From: Halocaridina rubra
Lineage: Eukaryota; Arthropoda; Malacostraca; Decapoda; Atyidae
Length of the DNA: 64,000 bases
Reading direction: 5' to 3'
Assembly: GCA_037179515.1 (NCBI GenBank)
Contig: JAXCGZ010021127.1
Span: 1-64,000 of the forward strand
Part shown: one piece after another, positions 2,881 to 52,020 of the stretch
How positions within the stretch are numbered: position 1 is the first letter of the stretch
Layout: every line of letters begins with the position of its first letter
Program-made: the position numbers and the translations under genes
The notes under the pieces: model-generated
Told to the model about the DNA's origin: nothing
What the model saw: only the letters and a program-made list of their open reading frames with translations
Database searches by the model: none

Positions 2881-4760
2881 AATGAGCCTGTGGACTGGGT
2901 TACCAAACACCAATACCTGGGTGTAATCATCGACCAAGGACTAACCTTTGGACAAGAAATTCAACACTTGCGCGACAGGTGCAGCCAGCGACAAGCGGCC
3001 CGTCGGGCGGGCCTCTACGATGGTGCATCATTTAATGTCCTCAGAACCTTCTATGTACAAGCCATACTCAGCCTCATAGGCTATGCTTGTCCCACACTCT
3101 GGCTACTAACAGACCAACAGTGGGACAAGATAGAAGTAATTCATAACAACGCCACACGTATCATGCTAGGAGCCCCCATGTGGACCAAGAGAGAAAATAT
3201 CCAGATGGAATCGGGACTCATCCCACTCAAACTCAGAGCTCAGCAAAGACTGACCCTCCTTGTGGTCAAAACCACCACTGCCCAACATAAATGCCTAGCT
3301 GGCACAAATCTCCATCTAGAACTCAATCGCCACCCCAACCACCATCCTAGAACCTGGGCAGCCAAGGTCTGTGCTAGCCTGCAAGCACTACCAGTCAGGG
3401 AGAGCATCCTAGCCAAGATACAAGACACACCGCTTCCTGAATACAGATGCCCACCCCCATGGAATGACCAAGCACTCGACATAAAGATCGAGCTCCCTGA
3501 CCACCCCAAAAGCTTGGTAAACCCGCTTGTCCTTAAAAACATATATAAGGACAAAATTCAGAGCTGGAGCAGGCCAACCTCTCAAGTCTACTACACTGAC
3601 GGTTCAGTAAATCAAGAAACTGGAGCCTCAGCCACCGCCTTCACCACTGAAAACCACGTCCTATCCTGGAGACTGTCAAACTCCTGCTCATCGCTCCAGA
3701 CTGAGCTTGTTGCCATAGCTAACGCCCTCGACTTCTTCATCCAGCAAGGAGCTGACCATGCCCTAATTCTCTCTGACTCCAAAGGCGCCTTACAGGCCAT
3801 CAAGAAGCCACACCTCAGAGACAATGTACGCATCATCACCACCATCCTCAGCCACTACCACAGGACAACCAGCCTTGGAAAAGCCATCACTCTTGCCTGG
3901 ATTCCCAGCCACGTCGGCATCAAGGGAAATGAGGAAGCCGATCAAGCCGCCAAACAAGCCACTCTCAGAGCAGAAATCCAGATATCTCTGTCTCCTGGGA
4001 TGCAACAGATAAAAAATGAAGCCACCAAGTCACTCTTTAACACCTTAACAACTAAACACAACCTGTGCACAGACAATGGCTCCCCCTCCACCTGGTGGTA
4101 CAAAGCCACCTCTGATCTTCGGCGTATCACCCTGCCGAAGAGCCTTCTACGAAGCACTGAGCTCAATGTGTACCGTCTGAGACTCGGGTACAAGTGCACC
4201 TGGCAAATAGTGCAGGATATCATCAGGGAATGCACCTTTTGCCAGGTAGCCTCACCACATCCACTGCTACATTACATCCTGGAATGTGATTCTTTTTCAG
4301 AAATACGACGAAAAACTGGTGCCCCCGCAACATCTAGTGAAGACCCAAATGCCCTTCATGTTGCTAGCTCCATCATCAGACTAGCAACAAATAACCACAT
4401 GAACAGTTTACTAAATATTATCAGACAATACCCTCCACCAAGATAACCATGCAATAACTCTCTCTCACCCCAAAACAGGAATTCATTTAAATTGTTTGAT
4501 GTAAACTAATAATTCACAACTGAATAATTATGCTCTCCGTTATCTTTACAGCTTAGCACAATCTCACCTGCGGGCCAATTAGGAAAGTCCGATCACCAAC
4601 AATAACAAGATTTCACCCCACCTCCTCACCAACAGGAAAGCCCATTCGCCCGCAAGAGCGAATACCACGTACACTCCAAAAAAATCCCAACCCACCTGCG
4701 GGCCACAAGTGGAAGGTCCGCTCACCCTCAAGGGTGAACATCCAAGAACAACAACAATGA
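2881..4760 (+). mobile_element. family B non-LTR element, 5'-truncated, with 3' UTR
   Basis: A 5'-truncated copy beginning just before the NEPVDWVTKHQYLGVIID segment of ORF2 (compare 58,405 in the plus-strand copy). It contains the RT thumb, RNase H, a C-terminal zinc-finger-like segment and a 3' UTR of about 310 bases ending in an A-rich tail near 4760. The 3' UTR has hairpin units, including complementary arms at 4645-4662 and 4722-4737. It sits between AT-rich tandem repeats and a long TA tract. Confidence 0.9.
2890..4446 (+). CDS. ORF2 C-terminal fragment: RT thumb, RNase H, zinc finger (family B)
   Basis: An open frame of 518 codons, unusual in this window. Residues 1-130 are the RT thumb. 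RNase H follows with the acidic set D237 (YYTDGS), E272 (QTELVAI), D296 (LILSDS) and D351 (GNEEADQAA), plus H341 in IPSHVGIKG; all expected residues are present. Near the C terminus is a Cys/His cluster (ECTFCQVASPHPLLHYILEC), typical of I-group non-LTR ORF2 ends. RNase H would degrade the RNA strand during target-primed reverse transcription. The ATG is only the first Met after the truncation point, not a natural start. Without endonuclease or the RT core it cannot be an autonomous element; whether it is transcribed is unknown. Confidence 0.85.
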   Translation: MDWVTKHQYLGVIIDQGLTFGQEIQHLRDRCSQRQAARRAGLYDGASFNVLRTFYVQAILSLIGYACPTLWLLTDQQWDKIEVIHNNATRIMLGAPMWTKRENIQMESGLIPLKLRAQQRLTLLVVKTTTAQHKCLAGTNLHLELNRHPNHHPRTWAAKVCASLQALPVRESILAKIQDTPLPEYRCPPPWNDQALDIKIELPDHPKSLVNPLVLKNIYKDKIQSWSRPTSQVYYTDGSVNQETGASATAFTTENHVLSWRLSNSCSSLQTELVAIANALDFFIQQGADHALILSDSKGALQAIKKPHLRDNVRIITTILSHYHRTTSLGKAITLAWIPSHVGIKGNEEADQAAKQATLRAEIQISLSPGMQQIKNEATKSLFNTLTTKHNLCTDNGSPSTWWYKATSDLRRITLPKSLLRSTELNVYRLRLGYKCTWQIVQDIIRECTFCQVASPHPLLHYILECDSFSEIRRKTGAPATSSEDPNALHVASSIIRLATNNHMNSLLNIIRQYPPPR

Positions 4761-4790
4761 AATTACAATGTTTACGTCTATTCTATAAAG

Positions 4791-5075
<285 letters not shown>

Positions 5076-6373
5076 GGGAATTTTTCTCTTTCCCATCCTT
5101 ATGAGTTCGAATATGTAGCTGAAAAGACGTTATTTCCCTTTGGGGACATTTTTTAATTTTTAATTATTTAATTTTCTTAATTATAAGTATTTTCAATTCC
5201 CTTTCTCATTCTTATGGAATTTATTATATGTATGGGGATTTTTTTTCATCTCCCTTTCTCATTTTTAATTTTAGAGACTTTCATTTCGCCTTTTCTCATT
5301 TTTAGTTAAAGGGATTTTCATTTTCCCATGTCCCAGTACCCATCATTGCTAGGTCTTGGGCTTATTCCTACACCTTGTTCCCGGTAAACCCCCACCTTAC
5401 ACTTTGAAATAGGTCCGGGTTGTAACCATGGACCGTGAATTCTTTTTCTTGAGACACTCTTGAGACACGGCTGGACAACAGAAGGGCGCCGATATATCTG
5501 CCATGAGCCTCTTCCGCCCACGTTGCTGCAAATCTCGAGGTGGTCCTAGGACCACCACTCACGCCACCTCCCCATGGAGGTGCATCTCCCTCCAGCTGAA
5601 AAATATGAACATAGCCTGGAGTAGATTCTAGGGCCGGAAACTAGGGCCTGATGTCGCTAATACAAATGCAAGAGAGAATAGATATAACCTCTGAGTACAA
5701 ACAATGGCATTATGTAAGCATTCAAAGAGCATACTTCGCCTCCCTGCATCTGCAGGCGCTTGCAATCTCTCCAATGGGTAAAAGGGACTGGTTTGTGAAA
5801 ATAAACTTTAAAATTGCAGGTTGGGGTTACCTGGAAATAGGGAGGTAATTGAAAGTATGTGTCTACACCATTAAGTAATTATTCTAAGATACTTACGATG
5901 TAGCTGAGTAACTAATAAATAACATTAGCACACAATAGATATAAAAAAGAAGAGTCATGAAATGCTAAGAACAGCCAATAAAGAAATATTCTTATTAGCA
6001 GTGACTACATTAGTATAAAAGTATGAATTCAAGATAAAAAGATACAAATCATCTGGTTACTACTGATAGCATTAATATCTATCTACCTTGGCTGTTTCCC
6101 CCTTTAATTGGAGGGTAGCCATCATAAAAAAAAAGAAAACAATAAGGGGATTACTTTGCTCTATGGACAATGAGGAGGGAGCTAGTGACTGTTCAGAGGC
6201 AATGCTGGAGTGCCACAGCCCATCCTCCCGGCTCTCCCACAACCTGTGTCGCTTAACAACTGCCAACTCCTCTACTGCCCCCACCACAGGGCTACCTCTG
6301 TAAGATGCAGCCCCGTAGTAACAGCAGATACCGATCAGAGCTGCATCACAATCTCTCCCTACTCATTCCTATT
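5076..6373. other. unassigned region, pyrimidine-rich then mixed
   Basis: The stretch 5080-5330 holds loosely repeated pyrimidine-rich words (CCCTTTCTCATTTTTA and GGGATTTTCATT variants). The stretch 5330-6373 has no open frame that I recognise; the longest ORFs are under 100 codons with no family features. GC rises around 5330-5600 and 6170-6370, so decayed repeats are possible. Confidence 0.4.
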
Positions 6374-6688
6374 CCTAGCACGGGCACTCATACCTGAATC
6401 TTGGATGTTGCACATTAAAGTCGCCTCCTGTTACCAAGTCACCATGGCTGGCTAATCCGAAGACGGCAGACAGGTCTAAGTCACCACTGTGTTGTCTATA
6501 AATGTTGTAAAGAGCTATACAGTTGCCATGTAGTTTAATGTTGACTGTGACGACATGGACACCTTTGCTGCAAAAGACAGGTTGGGTGATTTCCTTGGCT
6601 AGTAAGTTTTTCCTGATAAAGGTGGCGCTGCCTCTATTCTCCCCTGGAGTTCAGTGCTAGTAGAATCCCTGGTACCCAGAGACTTTGC
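6374..6688 (-). pseudogene. family B endonuclease fragment (left piece of a split copy)
   Basis: Matches the minus-strand B copy at 33,680-33,985 almost throughout (endonuclease middle to N-terminal part). Its right edge near 6688 continues, without apparent loss, at 9428. It was therefore one B copy split by the insertion at 6689-9427. The part of ORF2 further 3' (left of 6374) is missing. Confidence 0.8.
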
Positions 6689-7130
6689 TCCCTGACTATC
6701 GATACCCTTCTCCATGGGACGACTAACCACTCGACATAAATCTCGAGCTGCCAGATAACCCCAAATGCTCAGTTAACCCGCTTGTCCTTAAAAACACATA
6801 CAAGGACAAAATTCTGAGGCGGAGCAGGCCAAACTCCCAGATCTTCTACACTGATGGCTCAGTCAATCAAGAAACTGGAGCCTCAGCGGAAGCCTTCACC
6901 ACCGAAGACCACGTCCAATCCTGGAGGCTGTCGAACTCCTGCTCCTTGCTCTAAACTGAGGTGGTTACCATATCCAATGCCCTCAGTTTCTTCTCCCAGT
7001 AAGGAACTGACAATGCCCCTTTTCTCTCTGACTTTAAAGGCATCCTACAGGTCATCAAGAAGCCACTCTTCAAAGATAATATGAGAATTATTACTGGCAT
7101 TATTCACCTTTACCACAAACAAACAATTAT
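6689..7130 (+). pseudogene. family B RNase H fragment, opposite orientation
   Basis: Matches 3440-3880 of the B copy at 2881 (YTDGSVNQETGAS, GALQAIKK region) with several frameshifts and stops. Both ends are truncated. It abuts the minus-strand endonuclease piece at about 6689. No tail or 3' UTR is present, so it may be a rearranged piece rather than an independent insertion. Confidence 0.75.
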
Positions 7131-12574: not shown

Positions 12575-14640
12575 GTAATTACCTAATTTTGCTTACGGGA
12601 AAGAATCCCATGTTTGTAACTCCCCATCTCCTGGTCGGTTCCATTTTTGCACTTAGTGATACTTATCGTAATTGTCCTTAAAACTATGGATTCAGCTGGC
12701 ATTAACTACCTCCTCGATTCCAGTTATCAACTACTCTTACACTAGAATAGTACTTCCTTAACTCCTGCAGAGAATTTTACTTATGAAGCTTCAAACTATG
12801 ACGTCTAGTTCTAGTGCCAGATATATCAAAATGTCGCTCCCTAGCCACACTGTCATAACAATGAAGGAATTTAATAACCGTCACCATGTCCCCCCCTCTA
12901 TTTTCTAGCTTCAAGTGATGGTAAGTCTAATACCCTCAGCCTCTCCTCATAACTGAGATTGCGTTTTTCTGGCATCAGTTTTGTGGCATGTCTTTTAACA
13001 TTTTCCAGCTCTACTACGTTGCTTTTCAAGTGTGGATTACAAAAGGGGCCTTCATATTCAAGGTTTGGCCTCAAATAGGTTACATAAATATTTCTGAACA
13101 TGTCCTTGTCCATGTGCCTGAAGGCTACCCTTACATTTGTTAAGAAAGCATATACTGCCCTTACCATGCCATATATATGCATATCTGGAGACAAATCAGC
13201 CAGTATCCATACTGCTAGATCTCTCTCATTCTTTGTCTCTTGAAGGTCTGCCCCTGCTATTGAGTATTCAAGCTTGTACCCATTCTCATTATCCTACATT
13301 TAAAGGTATTGAATTTCATTAGCCACTATTTTGACCTCTCATGCAGACTATCAAGGTCTTAATGAAGCTCATTACCATTGTTCTCGTCTCTCACTTTCTT
13401 CACAATCTTTGTTTCATCTGCAAACATATTCATGAATGAATTTACAGATTCTGGTAAGCCATTTACATATGCAAAGAACAAAAGTGACCCTAAAACTGAA
13501 CCCTTTGAAACGACACTACTAATCCTTCTCCATTTAAACTCTGAGTGTCTTACTCTACTCCTTCTCAGTAAGCTTTTTCCATTTTTAAGACATATCAACC
13601 TATATTTGCCATTGCTTGCAATTTCTTAATAAGTCTCCCATGTGGGACTATATCAAATGTATCCTGAAACTCTAGGAATATGCAATCTGTCCAGTCCTCT
13701 TTTTCCTTTAAGATTCAGCTTACCCCATCATAAAATTGTAATAAGAGTGTTACTGTTGATCTACCTCCTCTGAAGCCATGTTGTCTCAGACAAAATGTTA
13801 AAGGATCCCAAGTGGAGAGAAATATGCTTTCTTAGTAGTTTCTCCATAACTTTGCAGACTATGCTGGTCTACGAAAGAGGCCTATAATCTAGATCTGCAT
13901 CCCTCCTTTCCATTTGAAAATAAGTACAATGTTCACTTGTTTCCAGCATCTTGGAATCTCCCCAGATTTCAGGAACTTTTCATATATGATGCATATTGCC
14001 AGCTCATTTCTTAAGTACGTAAGGGGAAATATCATCAGGACCTATAGCTTAATGGGCATCTAACTCCATCAATGATGTGCATACCTCTGTGGCTGAAAAG
14101 ATGATATTCTTTAATACTTGTCCATGAACCCCTATCTTTGCTATCTGAATGGATGGGGTATTTTCTGCTGTAAACACTGTCTGAAACATATTGTTAAGTT
14201 CTTCACAGATCTCTTCATCTGTTTCAGAGATGCTTCCATCCACTCTGTTTAACTTTAAAAATTGTTCTTTGACCTTCAGCTTTCCTCTGATAAAGCTGTG
14301 GAAAAGTCTTGGATTTTCTTTAGACTTCCTGGTGATATCAGTTTCATAATCTTGCTTTGCCTCTTTTCATTTACTTAGGTAATCAAACTTTGCTCTCTTA
14401 TAGGTCTGCAAGGCATTCATGTGTCTTCTTCTCTTTTACCTTTTCCAACACTTTCCCCTCTACTCCTTAGCTCTCTTACACTCATTATTGAACCATTTCT
14501 CTCTGGTATGAATAACTCCTATATTAGTGGAAGGTATGCAGCAATTTACTATCTTCTCATAATCCTCACAAAAGATTTCATACATTTCTTGTGCTTATTT
14601 GTTGTCAAATAAGACCCTCCAGTCAATAACTACAAAATAG
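12575..14640 (-). pseudogene. family A RT, older decayed copy
   Basis: Reading from about 14,640: YFVVIDWRVLFDNK (spacer after the endonuclease), the INE-like linker at 14,049-14,243 (SISETDEEICEELN), RT motifs in several frames, the box MFADETKIVKKV at 13,359-13,598, and the C-terminal segment at 12,898-13,194. Divergence from the other copies is the greatest in the window, with a substituted second Asp in the catalytic box (FADE), many stops and indels. It is 5'-truncated at about 14,640. It ends with the tail near 12,575-12,600, into which the 12,009-12,574 copy is joined. Confidence 0.85.
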
Positions 14641-14818
14641 GATTTTAGAATAGAATTTTGTGACTTTAACAAGTAGATTAGTCCTGTTTTCAGGTATTTG
14701 GACAACTCCCGGCATTTTTGGGTCAAAGTTGGCAAACAAGCCTTTTCTAGTTTTTTTTCTGAGTCCATTTTTTCTGTTTGCCAAACTGTAGTTCTCAAAC
14801 TGACACCATCAGATGGGT
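14641..14818. other. unassigned spacer
   Basis: No ORF or recognised repeat between the A copy and the left inverted repeat at 14,819. Confidence 0.4.
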
Positions 14819-14835
14819 AAATCCAAGATGACCAC
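14819..14835 (+). repeat. left 17-bp inverted repeat (candidate TIR)
   Basis: AAATCCAAGATGACCAC is the perfect reverse complement of 18,319-18,335. A related motif (TCCAGGATGGCTGAC) lies inside at about 14,991. The pair brackets the PIN/FEN-like pseudogene. Confidence 0.6.
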
Positions 14836-15067
14836 CTTTAGCTCAAAAGCTTCATTTTTACAAGTGTTGCCTTGTCTGTATATCATTATGATAACCATAA
14901 AACCTTATGAAACCCATTATAAAGTCATTGTGAATTAGTAATTTTTTTATATAACTTTTCTCACAAGAAAGTAATAAACATAAACGTAAGTCCAGGATGG
15001 CTGACAACACATTTAAATTAGAAGTTGCAGATTGCAAATTGATGAACAGGCATAGTGGCAGTGTGTT

Positions 15068-18000
15068 TTACACAACGTCATTGTTGGACTTCAACATTGC
15101 TACAATCGTCATTGGATGTTCTACATTTGCATGCTGCTGTACAACGCAAGTGGGACTTTTACATTTGCAACGTACACTCATACATCCATTGGCGCAGTTG
15201 CAGGTGCTCAGTTCCAAACATAAGTCTGAGATTGTGGTAGGGACATCAGCAATGGCACAAGTGATACACCTTCCATCCTCCATCCCATCGGCTCCGGTTG
15301 AGGTAGTTCTGGATACTGTTTATTTGCCTGTTGCCACACAGATGTTTGACAGTGAGCTCTTTGGATGTGAAACAAGAGGGCATCACCAGTTGGAGGAAGA
15401 GTCTCTGGAGCATTGGACTTCACGAGCAGAATTTCCCGCACCTTATTGACTTTTGTAATGTTGGGGACATTGTACAACTTACAGATGAATAATTCAGCGT
15501 TTTTCACTGTTGTGTCATCGAGTTCAGGTTGACCTAGACCTACAAGAAGGCGAGAGTGTTCTTGAAGCACTTTCCAGTAAGTTTTCTTTCCATGCCTGAA
15601 GAGGTATGAAGTTGTGTCACTATCAGTGATGGCGTGAAATGCTGTAATGGATTCCATCTTATCATTATCAATAGCAAGCTGTTCCGCAATAGTTTTTATA
15701 GGAATATACTTCCTGTTTGCAGCTGTTCCAACCTTCAACTAAACTTTGTCACTGGGCATTTTATGGAAATGTGCAAGTAGTAATACCAGGACATCTGTGT
15801 CAAGTGCAGCTAGCACAATGCTAGAGGCTTGAATTTCTGTACAATGCAGAATCATTCTTGTATCTGCCTCTTCATGCCGAGCTTTGAGTTTGTTTGCTCC
15901 CACTTCTGGATCCTATGATTCCACCTGTTATTCATCGACGAATCTGCCAGATACCACAACTGTTTTGTTTGCTGAAACATTCATCATCAGTTGTTGTGAG
16001 AGGAAATTGACCAATTCTGCCTTGTTTTCAGGATGTGCCATAAAAGTATTCCACTTTCCTGGGAGTGGAACATTCCTAACTTCAGTAAAACATCAGATCT
16101 CCACTTATGCTTGACCACGTCCTGTTCTTGTTCACTCTTTGATGGATTTCTCAGGGTATTTGTCAAACACTACATCAATTCGTTTGAACAGAGTCCCCCC
16201 TTGAAGAATAGCTCTAATGAATACGTGAGCTAGGTCTCCAAATGTGGCTGCTTTGAGTGGTTTCCCAGTGGAACAAACCATTGCTTGACCATCAGTTATG
16301 AGTGCTGCTGTTTCCCCAAGCTCTGCAGCGCCTATGCTTGGAGGACATTGTATTCCTAAAGTGTTTGCATGAGCCAAGTCTGCTTTTCATCCAGATTGAA
16401 GTCTACCATTTGTCTTAGCTAGATCCTGGGGGACAGTTAAAAGTTCATTCATCAGTACTTCTGACAGGTTTACGTGTCGGCCACTTTCATAGGCAGTGAT
16501 CAGGAGATGGATAATTTTCCTATCTGCTATGAGGGACTTCTCAATACCTTTCTGTCTTGTAACTTTGTGTTTTACTTCATAGAATGAAGCAAACGTGAGG
16601 ACCTTTTGGGGTAGAGGATCTCAGAGCTTGACCTGTCTCTGTTCTGGAGCAATGAGCCTCTCTTGGATGAGGTTGTTCAAGTTTTCCTGTCCTCTTCAGT
16701 GTGCACATAGTAAGTCATTTTCAATTTCCATTGTGGCAAAGTCCTCATCTAAGAATTGGTTGAATGACTTCAGTGCTACCAGAAGACTGCCCTCATCACA
16801 GCTGTCTTGCATTTGCCTTGCTTTGAAGGACTTGATGTGCTAGTAGTCATCATCATAATCCAGTCTGTAAACAGCTCTCGTTTTGTTGGAGACATGGGAC
16901 TGTAGGTTGTAAGAGAGCACCCATTTACTCAGTGCAGATGATATTTTGGTTATGCCTATTCTTACCTCCAGTGGCGCTGTAAACAAAATCTTGTACATTA
17001 CTATGAGCTCTTGCTTGACTGCCATCCTTTTTTGTATCGTCTGGGTCTGCTTCAAAAAGACTCTGTCAACCAAACATCAACTGAAGGAACACAAAAAAGC
17101 TATTTGGGATGCAGGATATCATTTCATCTTCATTGATAACAAATCCCTTGTACATGGGATGTGCCAGTATATCACCTTTCAGTCTAAAAGCCAAATGAAT
17201 CATCTCAATATATCCTTCTTGAGCCTGATATTTTGGTATCAGTGTTGGTTCCTTCTATTCAGAGAGTAATGTTGAAGAAGGGACTTTCGAAATCCAACTG
17301 GTATGAGTAACATCTCTCGTTCTTCTAGCGTTATCAGTTCATATACCTTTTGCAGGCATTGTTCCAAATTTTCTTTAAACGTACCCCATCTACTGAAGTA
17401 AGATGGGAGTATGGCTATCGTTGCACATTCTGCCAAATCACAATACCTCTGCCATATCTCGGATAGTTGGAAGATGTGTGCCTTTGTTGCTGCTGCTGTT
17501 AGTCCATCAATCAACCATTTCAAAGCTAGACCTGTAGTTTGTGCACTTTCTCTTGTTTTGGAAGTCATACGAAGCAACTGCTGGTAACATGGATTGTCTT
17601 AACTTTCCTTAGGCAGCTATGAGGTCACTGACCCCAGCAAGGTCAAGAGAAAGACGTTGGTCATAATTTGCAGCTTCCAAAATCCGGTCACTCTTATTCA
17701 TCATAATAACAGATGAGATCTTGACTTTCGAAGTCACATCTTGGCAGAACATGCATGCATTCCAATTAATAACCCCTGAAGAGATCCTGAGAGTTGATGA
17801 TGGTCTACTTGACTCTGCACCTGCGTGGTAGCAGTCGGTATTCTATGCTGTTGGTCAAACTGTAGCCTGCATATGTGGCTCTTGCCTGTAAAAGAAGGAT
17901 AACAAGACTGGTGCCAGATCAAATGTTGTTCTTCTGCATTGGAAATTCCAAGAACACGCTCGAGTTCAACTCTGTTTTGAGGATCCCAAAGTTTTGACCT

Positions 18001-18141
18001 GCTTTGTGCTGCTTCTAGGAGTGTTTGTAGGCCTTGTTTTGTCGCATTGTACAACTTGTCTGCTTTATTGGCCTCTTGACATATAAAGCAATTCTTTAAC
18101 GTACTGGATCTGTTTCGTCTCAGATTACAGACATCTTCCAT
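15068..18141 (-). pseudogene. decayed gene for a large zinc-finger / PIN-FEN-like nuclease protein
   Basis: Read from 18,141 down; about 1,000 codons in several frames with stops. The N terminus has a zinc-finger-like block (CFICQEANK ... IWHQSCYPSFTGKSHI), and a second block starts NACMFCQ near 17,745-17,765. The segment 17,239-17,577 has WLIDGL and WGTFKENLEQ. At 16,132-16,377 is ATFGDLAHVFIRAIL followed by RIDVVFDKY. At 15,760-15,880 are EEADTRMILH and ALDTDVLVLLL, then AFHAITDSDTTSYLFRHGKK at 15,590-15,650. The C terminus is Cys-rich (NCANGCMSVRCKCK). The order VFD, EADTR, DTDV, xxDTTS matches the acidic motifs of FEN/XPG-type PIN-like nucleases; that assignment is my inference. From memory it belongs to a large uncharacterised family frequent in cnidarian, fish and invertebrate gene sets. 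In-frame stops (for example after MPSDKV near 15,740) and frameshifts make it a pseudogene. Confidence 0.75.
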
Positions 18142-18318
18142 GATGGTACCACATGCTCTGGAAATAAAGAATAACTCATTAGGACATTTATTTCAATTAA
18201 TGCATGCCATTGCAAGTGAGTAACATTCATGCACTTGGGGCAACTGCAAATTGATGACAATCTGTTAAAAATAAAACAAAAACATATCATATACATTGTT
18301 CAACAATTAAATAAAACT

Positions 18319-18335
18319 GTGGTCATCTTGGATTT
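18319..18335 (-). repeat. right 17-bp inverted repeat (candidate TIR)
   Basis: GTGGTCATCTTGGATTT, perfect complement of 14,819-14,835. A further related motif (GGCGGCCATCTTGGTATTT) lies outside at 18,468-18,486. No target duplication is obvious at either edge. Confidence 0.6.
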
Positions 18336-18544
18336 TCAGTTTATAACGCACTATTTACACACAAAGACACACATTTTACATATTTTATTATTAATATGTA
18401 CATTAGAAGCTTGTGCAATGCATTATATCCATTAATATAGTTCTTATTTGAAGCCCAGCATTTTCTAGAAAATTGGCGGCCATCTTGGTATTTGTTTGCT
18501 AGGAGCAGCCCCTCACAAGATACGGCTTGGTAAATGTAGGGAAG
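18336..18544. other. unassigned spacer
   Basis: AT-rich, with one more copy of the CCAAGATGGC-type motif (complement) at about 18,468. No gene seen. Confidence 0.4.
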
Positions 18545-20284
18545 ATGTTGGTATGTTTCAGTTTTACTAAGGGGGCTCACTTTCTGAATTTCATTAGGAC
18601 AGATATTACTTGCATACCCTAATACCCCTACTCGGTTAAGTGAAACTCAGAATTCAACTTTCTTTTAATTTTGGAAATGCAAGGACACATTAAAAAAAAA
18701 TTAATTGATTTTGGAAAACTGGAACAAACATATAAATTTAAATTTATGGAATGCAGCCTCGAATCCTGGAGGTGGTGAGCACAATTTCAATTCCCGGCAC
18801 CACAGACAGATGCCAAGATTTTGGCCTCAACTCGACGATTACCTCTGTCACACAGGCAGAGTTGAATATAGGATACTGCAATTGCAGAAACAGAAATGAC
18901 ACACCTTTAATAATGAGAAAACTGAAGGCACGAGCACACAAATAATGAATTTCCAATATTATTCCACTGGATGAAAAACAATTTATTCACAATAAATGAA
19001 GAATCAGTGAGACAAATACACTATGTATATATTAAATTGTGGTTAACTAGAAACGTTTGCAATGCCAACAGGGCAAAATTACTTATTAATTATTTGCAAT
19101 TAATAGCGTAAAACACTTTATTTAAATTATTAATTATTAATTAATTACTAATTATTTGCAATAAATGAAGAATCAGCTATATTCATTAAATTGTGTTTAA
19201 CAAGAAACGTTTGCAACGCCAACAGGGCAAAATTACTTATTATTTGCAAATCATAGCATAAAACGCTTCATTTAAATTCTTAATTATTTGCAATTTATAT
19301 CGTAAAACACTATATTTACGATAAAGCAAGAATCTACAAGTTAATATGTATCATTAAATTGTGGCTAGCAAGAAATGTTTGCAGTGCCAAAAGGGCAAAA
19401 ACACCTTACGAATTATTTGCAATTTGTAGAGCAAAGCATTTTTATTTACAACTATTGACATAAAACACTTTATATATGATGATAGAAAAGGGGTGAAATT
19501 AAATTTGAATTCGTTAGGAGAAGGGATAGATTTTTGCTTGATAATGAACAATATTCTGAGGGCAAAATTTTACCTGGGCATCCGCAATGAAAGATATTTT
19601 TTATCAGAGTATATCAGCGGTAATTTCCAGGTCAAGGAATTAAATTTGGCAAATGAGATTCCAGTTAGGTAATCTACAAAACAGCATTTTGTATATGAAT
19701 GGAACTGAGAAAAATTTCTTAGGATTTGACCAGTAACAGATTTGACCAGTAACGGATTTATCCAGTTTCTCGAATTCCCAATTTGCCTGACCAACGAGCT
19801 TTACCTTCAACTATCTCTCACCTTTTACTTGTGTCAGATGAATTCATGTGAAGACTGCTCCTACAAAAGAAGTTTGGAGTAAGCGTGACTGCTGAGGCAA
19901 AATCTTGCCTCTGGGATGTTTGGTCGCCAATTGAGAGCGATCAAGCGTCTCTCCTGGTGATGTCATCATTTGGCCAGCCTGTCGGGTTTATAGAGAGCAG
20001 TAATTTTTTCCCCAATGGGTTTTTTTAATAGCGGTGGTCCCTGGTTGCTAGTTTTGCAGAGATGCAAGGGAGAGACAGTATTTTAGGTACAAGAATATTG
20101 AAATAAAAAATATTTAAGATTAGCTATATATTGAAATATAATTTGCAAATAATCATAATCTGCAAAATGCAAGGAGTGAGATTCTTTTTTAGTAAGAAAA
20201 GAAAGGACAGTTAAAAGTTCACTAAATAACTAGTAAGGCAGCTATAAAGACCTCTGGTGACTTGGAGCAGAATAGTCTGTCACA
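18545..20284 (-). repeat. lone G-family LTR, about 1.74 kb, diverged
   Basis: Aligns along most of its length with the 2.17-kb LTRs of G1 and G2. Shared landmarks are TCAGAATTCAACTTTCTTTTAATTTTGGAAATGC, repeated TTATTTGCAATTTATA.CGTAAAACACTTTATTT blocks, GACCAACGAGCTTTACC, and GCAGAGATGCAAGGGAGAGACAGTATTTTAGGT. It ends in GTCACA at 20,284. The first ~70 bases are poorly conserved and some internal repeats are missing. No G internal sequence flanks it, so it is a solo LTR or remnant. Confidence 0.85.
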
Positions 20285-20308
20285 GCAAACAGCAAAATTG
20301 GATTCAGC

Positions 20309-20341
20309 AAAAAAAATAAATAAATAAATAAAAAAAAAAAA

Positions 20342-20431
<90 letters not shown>

Positions 20432-20448
20432 AATAAATAAATAAATTT
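20309..20448. repeat. (AAT)n / (AAAT)n microsatellite
   Basis: An A-rich lead-in (AAATAAAT), then about 27 AAT units and about six AAAT units. Confidence 0.95.
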
Positions 20449-20961
20449 AATAAAAAAAGAAAGCTAGTTTGCCAACTTTAACTGAAAAATACCTGAGGAT
20501 TTTCATACAGGAACATTTTCCAGATATTTCAATGTAGTATGCTGTTTAGTTTCCTAAAGTGTTTGAATCAACTCCTGTTGTCCAATATTAAAATACTCTT
20601 TTGATGGTTTAAGCATTTGCATTAGGTACTACATAAATTTTTCACTGGTATTCGTTTTGTTTTTTTTTCATTTACAGGTTCCAGCATTATGTTCCCTATG
20701 CAATGTCTTCATTATAATACAAGAATGTAATTAATTTAGAAGCCTTGATAGAGATAATGTTATTAGGGAAAATTATATGATATTCTTTTATATTTTTGGT
20801 ATGCTCCACAAGTGATATTTATAATTTAGTATAATGTTTAGTAGGTTGTAGAATACTGTATTTTACTAGAAAAAAAAATATAGGAAAGGATTTAGTGTCA
20901 CCCCGGTTGTTTCCTTTGCCTAAAATTAGTATTAAATCTAGTAAATGTCCCAGATTTGACA
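20449..20961 (+). repeat. possible 5' LTR of the BEL/Pao element (left boundary not found)
   Basis: No ORF. The right edge, GATTTGACA at 20,961, ends in CA just before a primer-site-like sequence and 86 bases before the Gag ATG, as expected of a 5' LTR. I cannot locate its start and no 3' LTR is in the window. Confidence 0.35.
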
Positions 20962-50570: not shown

Positions 50571-52020
50571 TTACCGACTAGTCAAATTGAGGCTGACGGC
50601 ACCAGCTTCCTCATTTGAGGGTAACAACTGTGGACTTAGTAGATCATCGAGGTCATTTTCCTTTCCATCAGCATGTTTGGCAGTGAAATTGAAAAGATTC
50701 AGGTAAAGTGCCCACCTTTTCAGGCGAGGATTCAGCTTGTCAGCAGACTGTAAATAAAGGAGAGGACGGTGGTCGGTTCTCAGTGTAAAATGTCAGCCAT
50801 ACAGATGGACTTCAAATTTCTTTATTGCCCAATATGCAGCTAGAGCTTCCTACTCCATGATGGAGTAATTTCGCTCTGCAAGGCGAAGCCAACGACTTGC
50901 ATATCGCACTGGAGCTACTTCTGCTGAGTTGTCTGATCGGGCTTGCAAGAGCACGGCACCCAGGCCTTCATCTGAGGCGTCGGTCTGCAAGATAAATGGA
51001 AAATCAGGGTTTACCAGTTGCAATACTGGCTAACCCGCCAATTCTTCTCGGAGCTTGAAAAATGCTCTCTCTGCTTCGTCTGTCCATTGGACAGTGGAGG
51101 TTTTACCTTGCTTTGAGAAGGTCATTTGCAGCAAAAGGGCAGCGATAGTATTAAAGTGTGGAATGAACCGTTGGTAGTAGCCGTCACTACCCAGGAATGA
51201 TCTCAGTTGAGTGCCGGTAGCAGGTTTCTCCATATCCTTAATAGCTTATACTCTGTCCTGTAAAGGGGACAGAACTCCTTCTCCGACCATGTGGCCGAGA
51301 TACTGCAATTGTGTGAAACCAATCTCACATTTGAAAGGCTTCAAATGAAGTCCATGCTGGTTCAGACGAGTGAGAACTCTGCCTAAAGTATCAATATTTT
51401 ATGCTTTATAGACGACATCCTGTCGTCTATAAAGCATAAAATATTGTCAAGGTCTGTAGTACAATCCTCATGAGTCTGCTGGGGCAGCCAGGGGCATTCA
51501 CCATACCAAGAGGCATGAGCCTGAACTGGTATAGACCATATTTTGTGGAAAAGGCTGTTAGAGGCTTGGTAGTCTCATTCTGCGGGACTTGCCAAAATCC
51601 ACTGGCCAGATCCAATTTGGACAAGCAACAGGCTCGGGAGAACAATGAGAAAATATGCTCAGCATTAGCAATGGGCTCTCCATCAAAGATGGTACGGGAG
51701 TTAAGCTTACGACAGTCAAGGCAGAACCTGTGACTGCCATCTCGCTTATGCACTGTCAATAACACCAAACACCAAGGCGAAATGCTCGTTTCAACTATTC
51801 CGAGGCAGAAACAAGTGACAAGATCTTCCTTCAGCCATACGGACAGCTGGTGGGGAAGGCCATAGGAATACCGAAATGGCTCTGGGTCAGTCAGTCTGAC
51901 ATGATGCTCAAGGGTAGTGGTAATGACGTTTTCGTAGTCCTCTAATAGCTCGTTCAGCTGTTCAACATGACTCGGTTGCAGTCTGGAGTTAATAATGCAA
52001 TTACCCACACTTTCCTTTCA
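50571..52020 (-). pseudogene. G2 reverse transcriptase and RNase H
   Basis: 51,427-52,008 gives the RT N-terminal two-thirds: YGLPHQLSVWLKEDL, HKRDGSHRFCLDCRKLNSRT, LSKLDLASGFWQV (motif A) and YQFRLMPLGMVNAPGCPSRL (motif B). The catalytic F-I-D-D lies at 51,410-51,430, where a perfect 25-bp inverted repeat scrambles the frame. Downstream: GSDGYYQRFIPHF and STVQWTDEAERAFFKLREEL (51,030-51,233), RNase H with [13 protein letters not shown] and [14 protein letters not shown], and a C-terminal RLKRWALYLNLFNFTAKH ending near 50,575. It is the last pol domain before the 3' LTR, after integrase. Confidence 0.88.

Follow-up and report, generated by a model that had tools for sequence, protein, structure and literature searches.

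A decayed, internally deleted copy of a probable Academ-type DNA transposon in the decapod Halocaridina rubra

Introduction

Can a nuclease of the PIN/FEN type be the only enzyme of a DNA transposon? This question is raised by a locus in a 64,000-nucleotide stretch of the genome of Halocaridina rubra (Decapoda, Atyidae; assembly GCA_037179515.1, contig JAXCGZ010021127.1, positions 1 to 64,000), here called the window, in which a broken gene lies between two perfectly inverted 17-bp sequences. An earlier note on this locus, made from the sequence alone, had read it as a possible undescribed transposon bracketed by these 17-mers and encoding a nuclease instead of a DDE transposase. The analysis reported here indicates that the gene is carried by a transposon, but by one with other ends. 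The feature is very probably an old cut-and-paste DNA transposon that belongs to the nuclease-encoding lineage (AcademX) of the Academ superfamily; this copy is decayed, internally deleted and non-autonomous. At full length, such an element measures about 5.5 kb, has TAG...CTA terminal inverted repeats (TIRs) and subterminal repeats, and encodes a single protein of ~1,530 residues. In this protein, two N-terminal CxxC...HxxC motifs are followed by a DUF6589-like core, then by a nuclease of the FEN/Exo1 type, and finally by a Cys-rich C terminus.

Results

Ends and mobility of the element

The genome search returned 90 protein matches across many contigs, several of which are fragments of one copy. 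The aligned copies share a 5' end, TAGACTAGTGGAATATCTGG, and a 3' end, CCGGACTAGTCTA, outside which the flanks are unlike; among 15 fetched loci, the 5' end was found in 8, the 3' end in 11 and both in 5. The corresponding features of the window are:

14674..20539, minus strand: whole element, delimited by the limits of homology among copies and by the aligned ends; gene sense minus, nested insertion within
14674..14741, minus strand: 3' TIR, outer part, ending ...ACTAATCTA (family ...ACTAGTCTA)
20463..20539, minus strand: 5' TIR, decayed, outermost 8 bases degenerate
18551..20289, no strand assigned: nested unclassified repeat in the element's 5' end, ~1.75 kb, limits approximate

The 3' terminus of the window copy was located by a pattern match with two mismatches (14674-14699), and its 5' limit (20539) is an 8-base extrapolation from a local match, in which bases 9-77 of the 77-base family 5' end correspond to window positions 20531-20463. 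This 5' end is separated from the element body by the nested repeat and by a T/TTA/TTTA microsatellite of ~140 bp (20321-20460), situated between the two. Copy L042 contains a relative of the nested repeat (4758-6839), and this relative seems to have a duplicated flank of 8-9 bp; three of the open reading frames (ORFs) of the nested repeat gave no Pfam match at E 0.1.

Target duplication was evaluated on 18 insertions with both ends, six from the subfamily of the window copy (subfamily A, window included) and 12 from a second subfamily (subfamily B, see below). The three flanking bases agreed at 41 of 54 positions, perfectly so in 8 of the 18 insertions; when the pairing of flanks was shuffled, the mean was 18.3 and the value of 41 was never reached in 20,000 trials. 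No signal appeared in the same insertions for duplications of 2 or of 4-8 bases. The first nine copies alone gave 20 agreeing bases out of 27, and the first eight, without L044 (which lies in a TA run and has an insertion close to its 5' end), gave 17 out of 24, a value equalled in a fraction of 0.0001 of the shuffles. The ends of L040, L043 and L045 were set by ungapped alignment, because mutations have altered the terminal bases or their immediate neighbours. On contigs C1623, C13902, C19476 and C16651 the ends are 14-19 kb apart, so that some of them may not represent a single insertion; C19423, whose 5' stretch reads N, and L051, which has no 5' end, were excluded because single-end contigs were left uncounted. 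The common ends, the unlike flanks and the 3-bp duplications of the group bear out the idea that the gene is transposon-borne.

The inverted 17-mers are internal repeats

The perfect inverted pair described in the earlier note is present, as are the two related motifs that it had placed nearby:

14819..14835, plus strand: 17-mer AAATCCAAGATGACCAC, left copy, internal subterminal repeat, exact match
18319..18335, minus strand: 17-mer, right copy (exact reverse complement of the left), internal subterminal repeat, exact match
18475..18492, minus strand: further subterminal repeat AATACCAAGATGGCCGCC
14992..15001, plus strand: further, weaker subterminal repeat CCAGGATGGC

The pair had also been judged improbable by chance, and rightly so: perfect inverted 17-mers at most 4 kb apart occurred in none of 40 Markov-1 random windows. 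It should be noted that this control is free of simple repeats, which make up nearly all of the 9,328 inverted 17-mer pairs of the real window. Pairs with more than two different letters number 13, at three places, namely 4794-4901, the pair under study and 51392-51446, the last being a palindromic stretch of nested perfect inverted 17-mers. Because the random windows gave no pair and multi-letter pairs are so few, the exact pair cannot be attributed to chance base composition, within the limits of a repeat-free control. With up to three mismatches allowed, the window contains just the two sites, and two matches were also obtained in 5 of 100 shuffles; in the 1.18-Gb genome, one exact copy of AAATCCAAGATGACCAC is listed besides the window pair.

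The 17-mers are nevertheless ruled out as termini of the element, since homology among copies passes both of them, running 145 bp outward of the left one and ~200 bp outward of the right one, resumes beyond the nested insertion, and stops at the other termini given above. The family form of the motif, AAATCCAAGATGGCCGCC, lies ~146 bp internal to the 3' end, and in L036 it is also found twice close to the 5' end. Copies L039, L042 and L045 carry AAATCCAGGATGGCTGAC, the counterpart of the repeat at 14992, ~160-170 bp from the outer 3' motif. Of the two properties for which the earlier note proposed to examine other copies, a fixed-length duplication was found in the 18 insertions as a group; the 17-mer motif lies inside the ends.

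The third exact 17-mer lies in L001 (contig C16194, 1349-1517), together with a near-copy in direct orientation ~150 bp away. When L001 was aligned with the initial 700 bases of the L036 element, the best score was 79, partly owing to the shared motif, against a mean of 57 and a maximum of 74 in 50 simple shuffles; the best blastn match of L001 had an E value of 0.048, and no protein match was better than E 0.9. Any relation to the element would be distant and weak.

Two subfamilies

The earlier note had suggested looking for short non-autonomous elements with the same ends. In subfamily A, no pair of 5' and 3' patterns (14 and 12 matches, respectively) lay less than 2.5 kb apart. Six 5' ends occur on contigs for which no protein match is listed, and the two that were read (L058, L059) are both ordinary 5' parts of the element, at least 1 kb long.

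Subfamily B, represented here by L049-L051, ends in TAGTAGAGGAAA, and none of these three loci has the 10-base core of the 17-mer at up to one mismatch. The TIR extends over ~830 bp at 90% identity in L050, is in pieces in L049 and is represented by the 3' end only in L051. Copies of subfamily B are mostly 85-92% alike, whereas the window copy mostly matches its own subfamily at 79-87%, so that subfamily B may be the younger. On contig C3571 (31259-33770), both subfamily B ends are found; because they are 2.5 kb apart and no protein match is listed there, this is perhaps a deleted, non-autonomous derivative.

The broken gene and its internal deletion

The decayed gene, with the protein motifs quoted in the earlier note, was found on the minus strand from 18150 to 15096, where it is disrupted by stops and frameshifts:

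15096..18150, minus strand: broken coding region, equivalent to residues 22-422 and 916-1549 of relative P0001 (tblastn; stop-to-stop pieces)
16959..16962, minus strand: internal-deletion junction, 1,459 bp missing compared with L036
15290..16390, minus strand: FEN/Exo1-like nuclease region, limits approximate, fold from relative P0016
15096..15232, minus strand: Cys-rich C terminus, CXC/TSO1-like by the source names of relatives P0028 and P0059

In the tblastn comparison with P0001, residues 22-422 align at 18150-16958, and the alignment then skips to residue 916 at 16959; the deletion removes residues 423-915, that is, most of the DUF6589-like core. Internal deletions are common in cut-and-paste elements, and a comparison of 16 copies (the window copy plus the 15 fetched loci) shows internal gaps in 11 of them, which range from 455 to 2,869 bp with respect to L036 and differ in their break points. 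Of the other five, L036 is the reference, L040 and L047 show no large gap, and L041 and L048 are not complete within the sequence fetched. In the nuclease region of the window copy, the seven acidic positions remain D or E despite the broken frame. The window copy has no core and its frame is broken; therefore it is immobile by its own means, and could at most be moved by the proteins of other copies. About 1 kb outside the 3' end, a minus-strand ORF (13359-13625) has a weak RVT_1 match (E 0.0041, under the cut-off).

Protein relatives, the candidate core and the nuclease

With an E-value limit of 0.001, a read-through of the gene pieces retrieved 60 relatives; 7,993 candidates, those with most shared words, were scored. 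The best relative, P0001, is 1,550 residues long and 60% identical across 59% of the query. The source names include the animals Nucella, Porites, Oculina, Branchiostoma, Frankliniella and Nymphon, and two rows carry the name of a bacterial metagenome-assembled genome, Sedimenticola, presumably reflecting host DNA in the bin of a symbiont. A search with the core of P0042 gave 66 proteins, including the query itself and two from the first list.

In the central core, D497, D663 and H692 are invariant in the 60 relatives, and E903 is present in 59, the exception being a gap in P0059. The predicted model of P0037 places D497 in the first strand, D663 after a later strand and the GGxH motif after the next one, followed by a long all-helical insert and by the helix that bears E903. 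Transposases of the RNase-H type that carry a helical insert have their strands and helices in this order, and the model thus suggests that the core is likely a transposase of the DDE/RNase-H type. The three acidic residues of the core and the seven of the nuclease are all kept in 58 of the 60 full-length relatives; the statement that the protein lacks a DDE fold hence holds for the window copy, in which the candidate core is deleted, but probably not for the family. DUF6589 (PF20231) matches weakly across the core in 14 of 22 relatives, spanning residues 779-912 in P0001 and 656-927 in P0002, P0004 and P0010. The 22 relatives scanned showed no helicase domain at E 0.01, four proteins had no match in NCBIfam, and P0001 had none in viral contigs. 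The two N-terminal CxxC...HxxC motifs are probably zinc fingers; their individual positions are retained in between 53 and all 60 of the relatives.

In the predicted structure of P0016, the C-terminal half adopts a PIN-like FEN/Exo1 fold, in agreement with the reading of the acidic motifs in the earlier note. The nuclease of Academ elements is of the XPG type. The seven acidic residues were paired with those of FEN1 through the order of the motifs, which we take to correspond, and not by residue-level superposition. In a viral structure library, the top matches of the longer model were chiefly XRN, FEN and exonuclease proteins; PDB sequence profiles gave no match, and a single ORF matched only an antibody chain in the PDB (E 0.57). 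A structure-specific 5' nuclease activity would be expected for a domain with this predicted fold.

Discussion

Several observations weigh against the assignment proposed here. The 5' terminus of the window copy is degenerate, and the bases flanking this copy agree at 0 of 3 positions (GCA/CTT), so that it alone gives no sign of a target duplication; C19476 agrees at one of three flanking bases. In the structure search, the best match other than FEN proteins was RAG1, and it was weak (E 0.28, probability 0.25). The DUF6589 scans of six relatives produced five matches, all under the Pfam cut-off, and none for P0006, and none of the zinc-finger families in Pfam matches either N-terminal motif. 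Finally, the Academ label is based on features shared with published descriptions, not on alignment to Academ sequences.

This last point leaves some room for a transposon of the same build in an unnamed superfamily, near Academ but outside it, an idea that the much longer TIRs of subfamily B also favour. We consider it unlikely, as the nuclease fused to a putative transposase, the 3-bp duplication and the length all agree with published features of Academ. Far less credible is the undescribed transposon that ends in the 17-mers and has a PIN/FEN nuclease as its only enzyme: the exact pair is real and rare and the nuclease fold was correctly recognized, but the homology beyond both 17-mers, the different form and internal position of the family motif, and the large conserved core that relatives keep beside the nuclease all contradict it. 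A pseudogenised host gene, i.e. a domesticated FEN-like nuclease, can practically be dismissed, despite the wide occurrence of the protein among animals by source name, in view of the many matches (even if some are pieces of one copy), the common ends between unlike flanks and the duplications of the insertions taken as a group.

For the Academ-type element, the following mechanism is proposed. The zinc fingers, the Cys-rich tail or both would bind the TIRs and subterminal repeats; the DDE core would cut the element ends and join them to the target with a 3-base stagger; and the FEN-type domain would cut the other strand, or trim 5' flaps at excision and insertion junctions. As a tentative proposal, on which we would not yet rely, DUF6589 might represent the DDE core encoded by Academ-type elements, whose transposases might be two-nuclease enzymes with a built-in FEN/Exo1-type domain that processes strands where other cut-and-paste transposases use hairpins or host repair. 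Linking DUF6589 to a conserved D, D, E core beside a FEN nuclease gives this uncharacterized Pfam family a testable function, and raises the question of the role of a flap nuclease in transposition. In the library searched, no paper names DUF6589. Searches for XPG nuclease or flap endonuclease with transposase or DNA transposon, TIR and target site duplication gave nothing relevant by title, and a search for Academ with DNA transposon and XPG gave no title on this subject.

What had looked like a mobile PIN nuclease thus probably belongs to a known superfamily, and accurate ends, a target duplication and a domain map can be given for it. It also serves as a caution that internally deleted copies can conceal a transposase core.

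Comparison with known systems

The nuclease resembles the flap endonuclease family (Exo1, FEN1, XPG/Rad2, XRN1/2) in its predicted fold and seven conserved acidic residues, and differs from it in its low identity (~12%), its fusion to a putative transposase and its Cys-rich tail. The core resembles PF20231 through the weak match of the relatives; the five matches from the six scans mentioned above are under the curated cut-off.

In bivalves, 100 curated Academ elements have a mean length of 5,565 bp, according to a published study (PMC10294476), and the 5,490 bp of the L036 element (one copy) fit this value. A second publication (PMC10045372) assigns duplications of 3 or 4 bp to AcademX and of 9 or 10 bp to AcademH, a contrast that seems tied to the encoded nuclease or helicase; because a nuclease-encoding Academ lineage with such short duplications is already in print there, the transposon is unlikely to be undescribed. 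AcademH, placed in the same superfamily by that publication, is set apart by its helicase and longer duplications. With AcademX, the family shares a nuclease beside a putative DDE-type transposase, TIRs, a 3-bp duplication and a length of ~5.5 kb; the window copy differs in its missing core and its interruption, and has the ends and subterminal repeats of its own subfamily.
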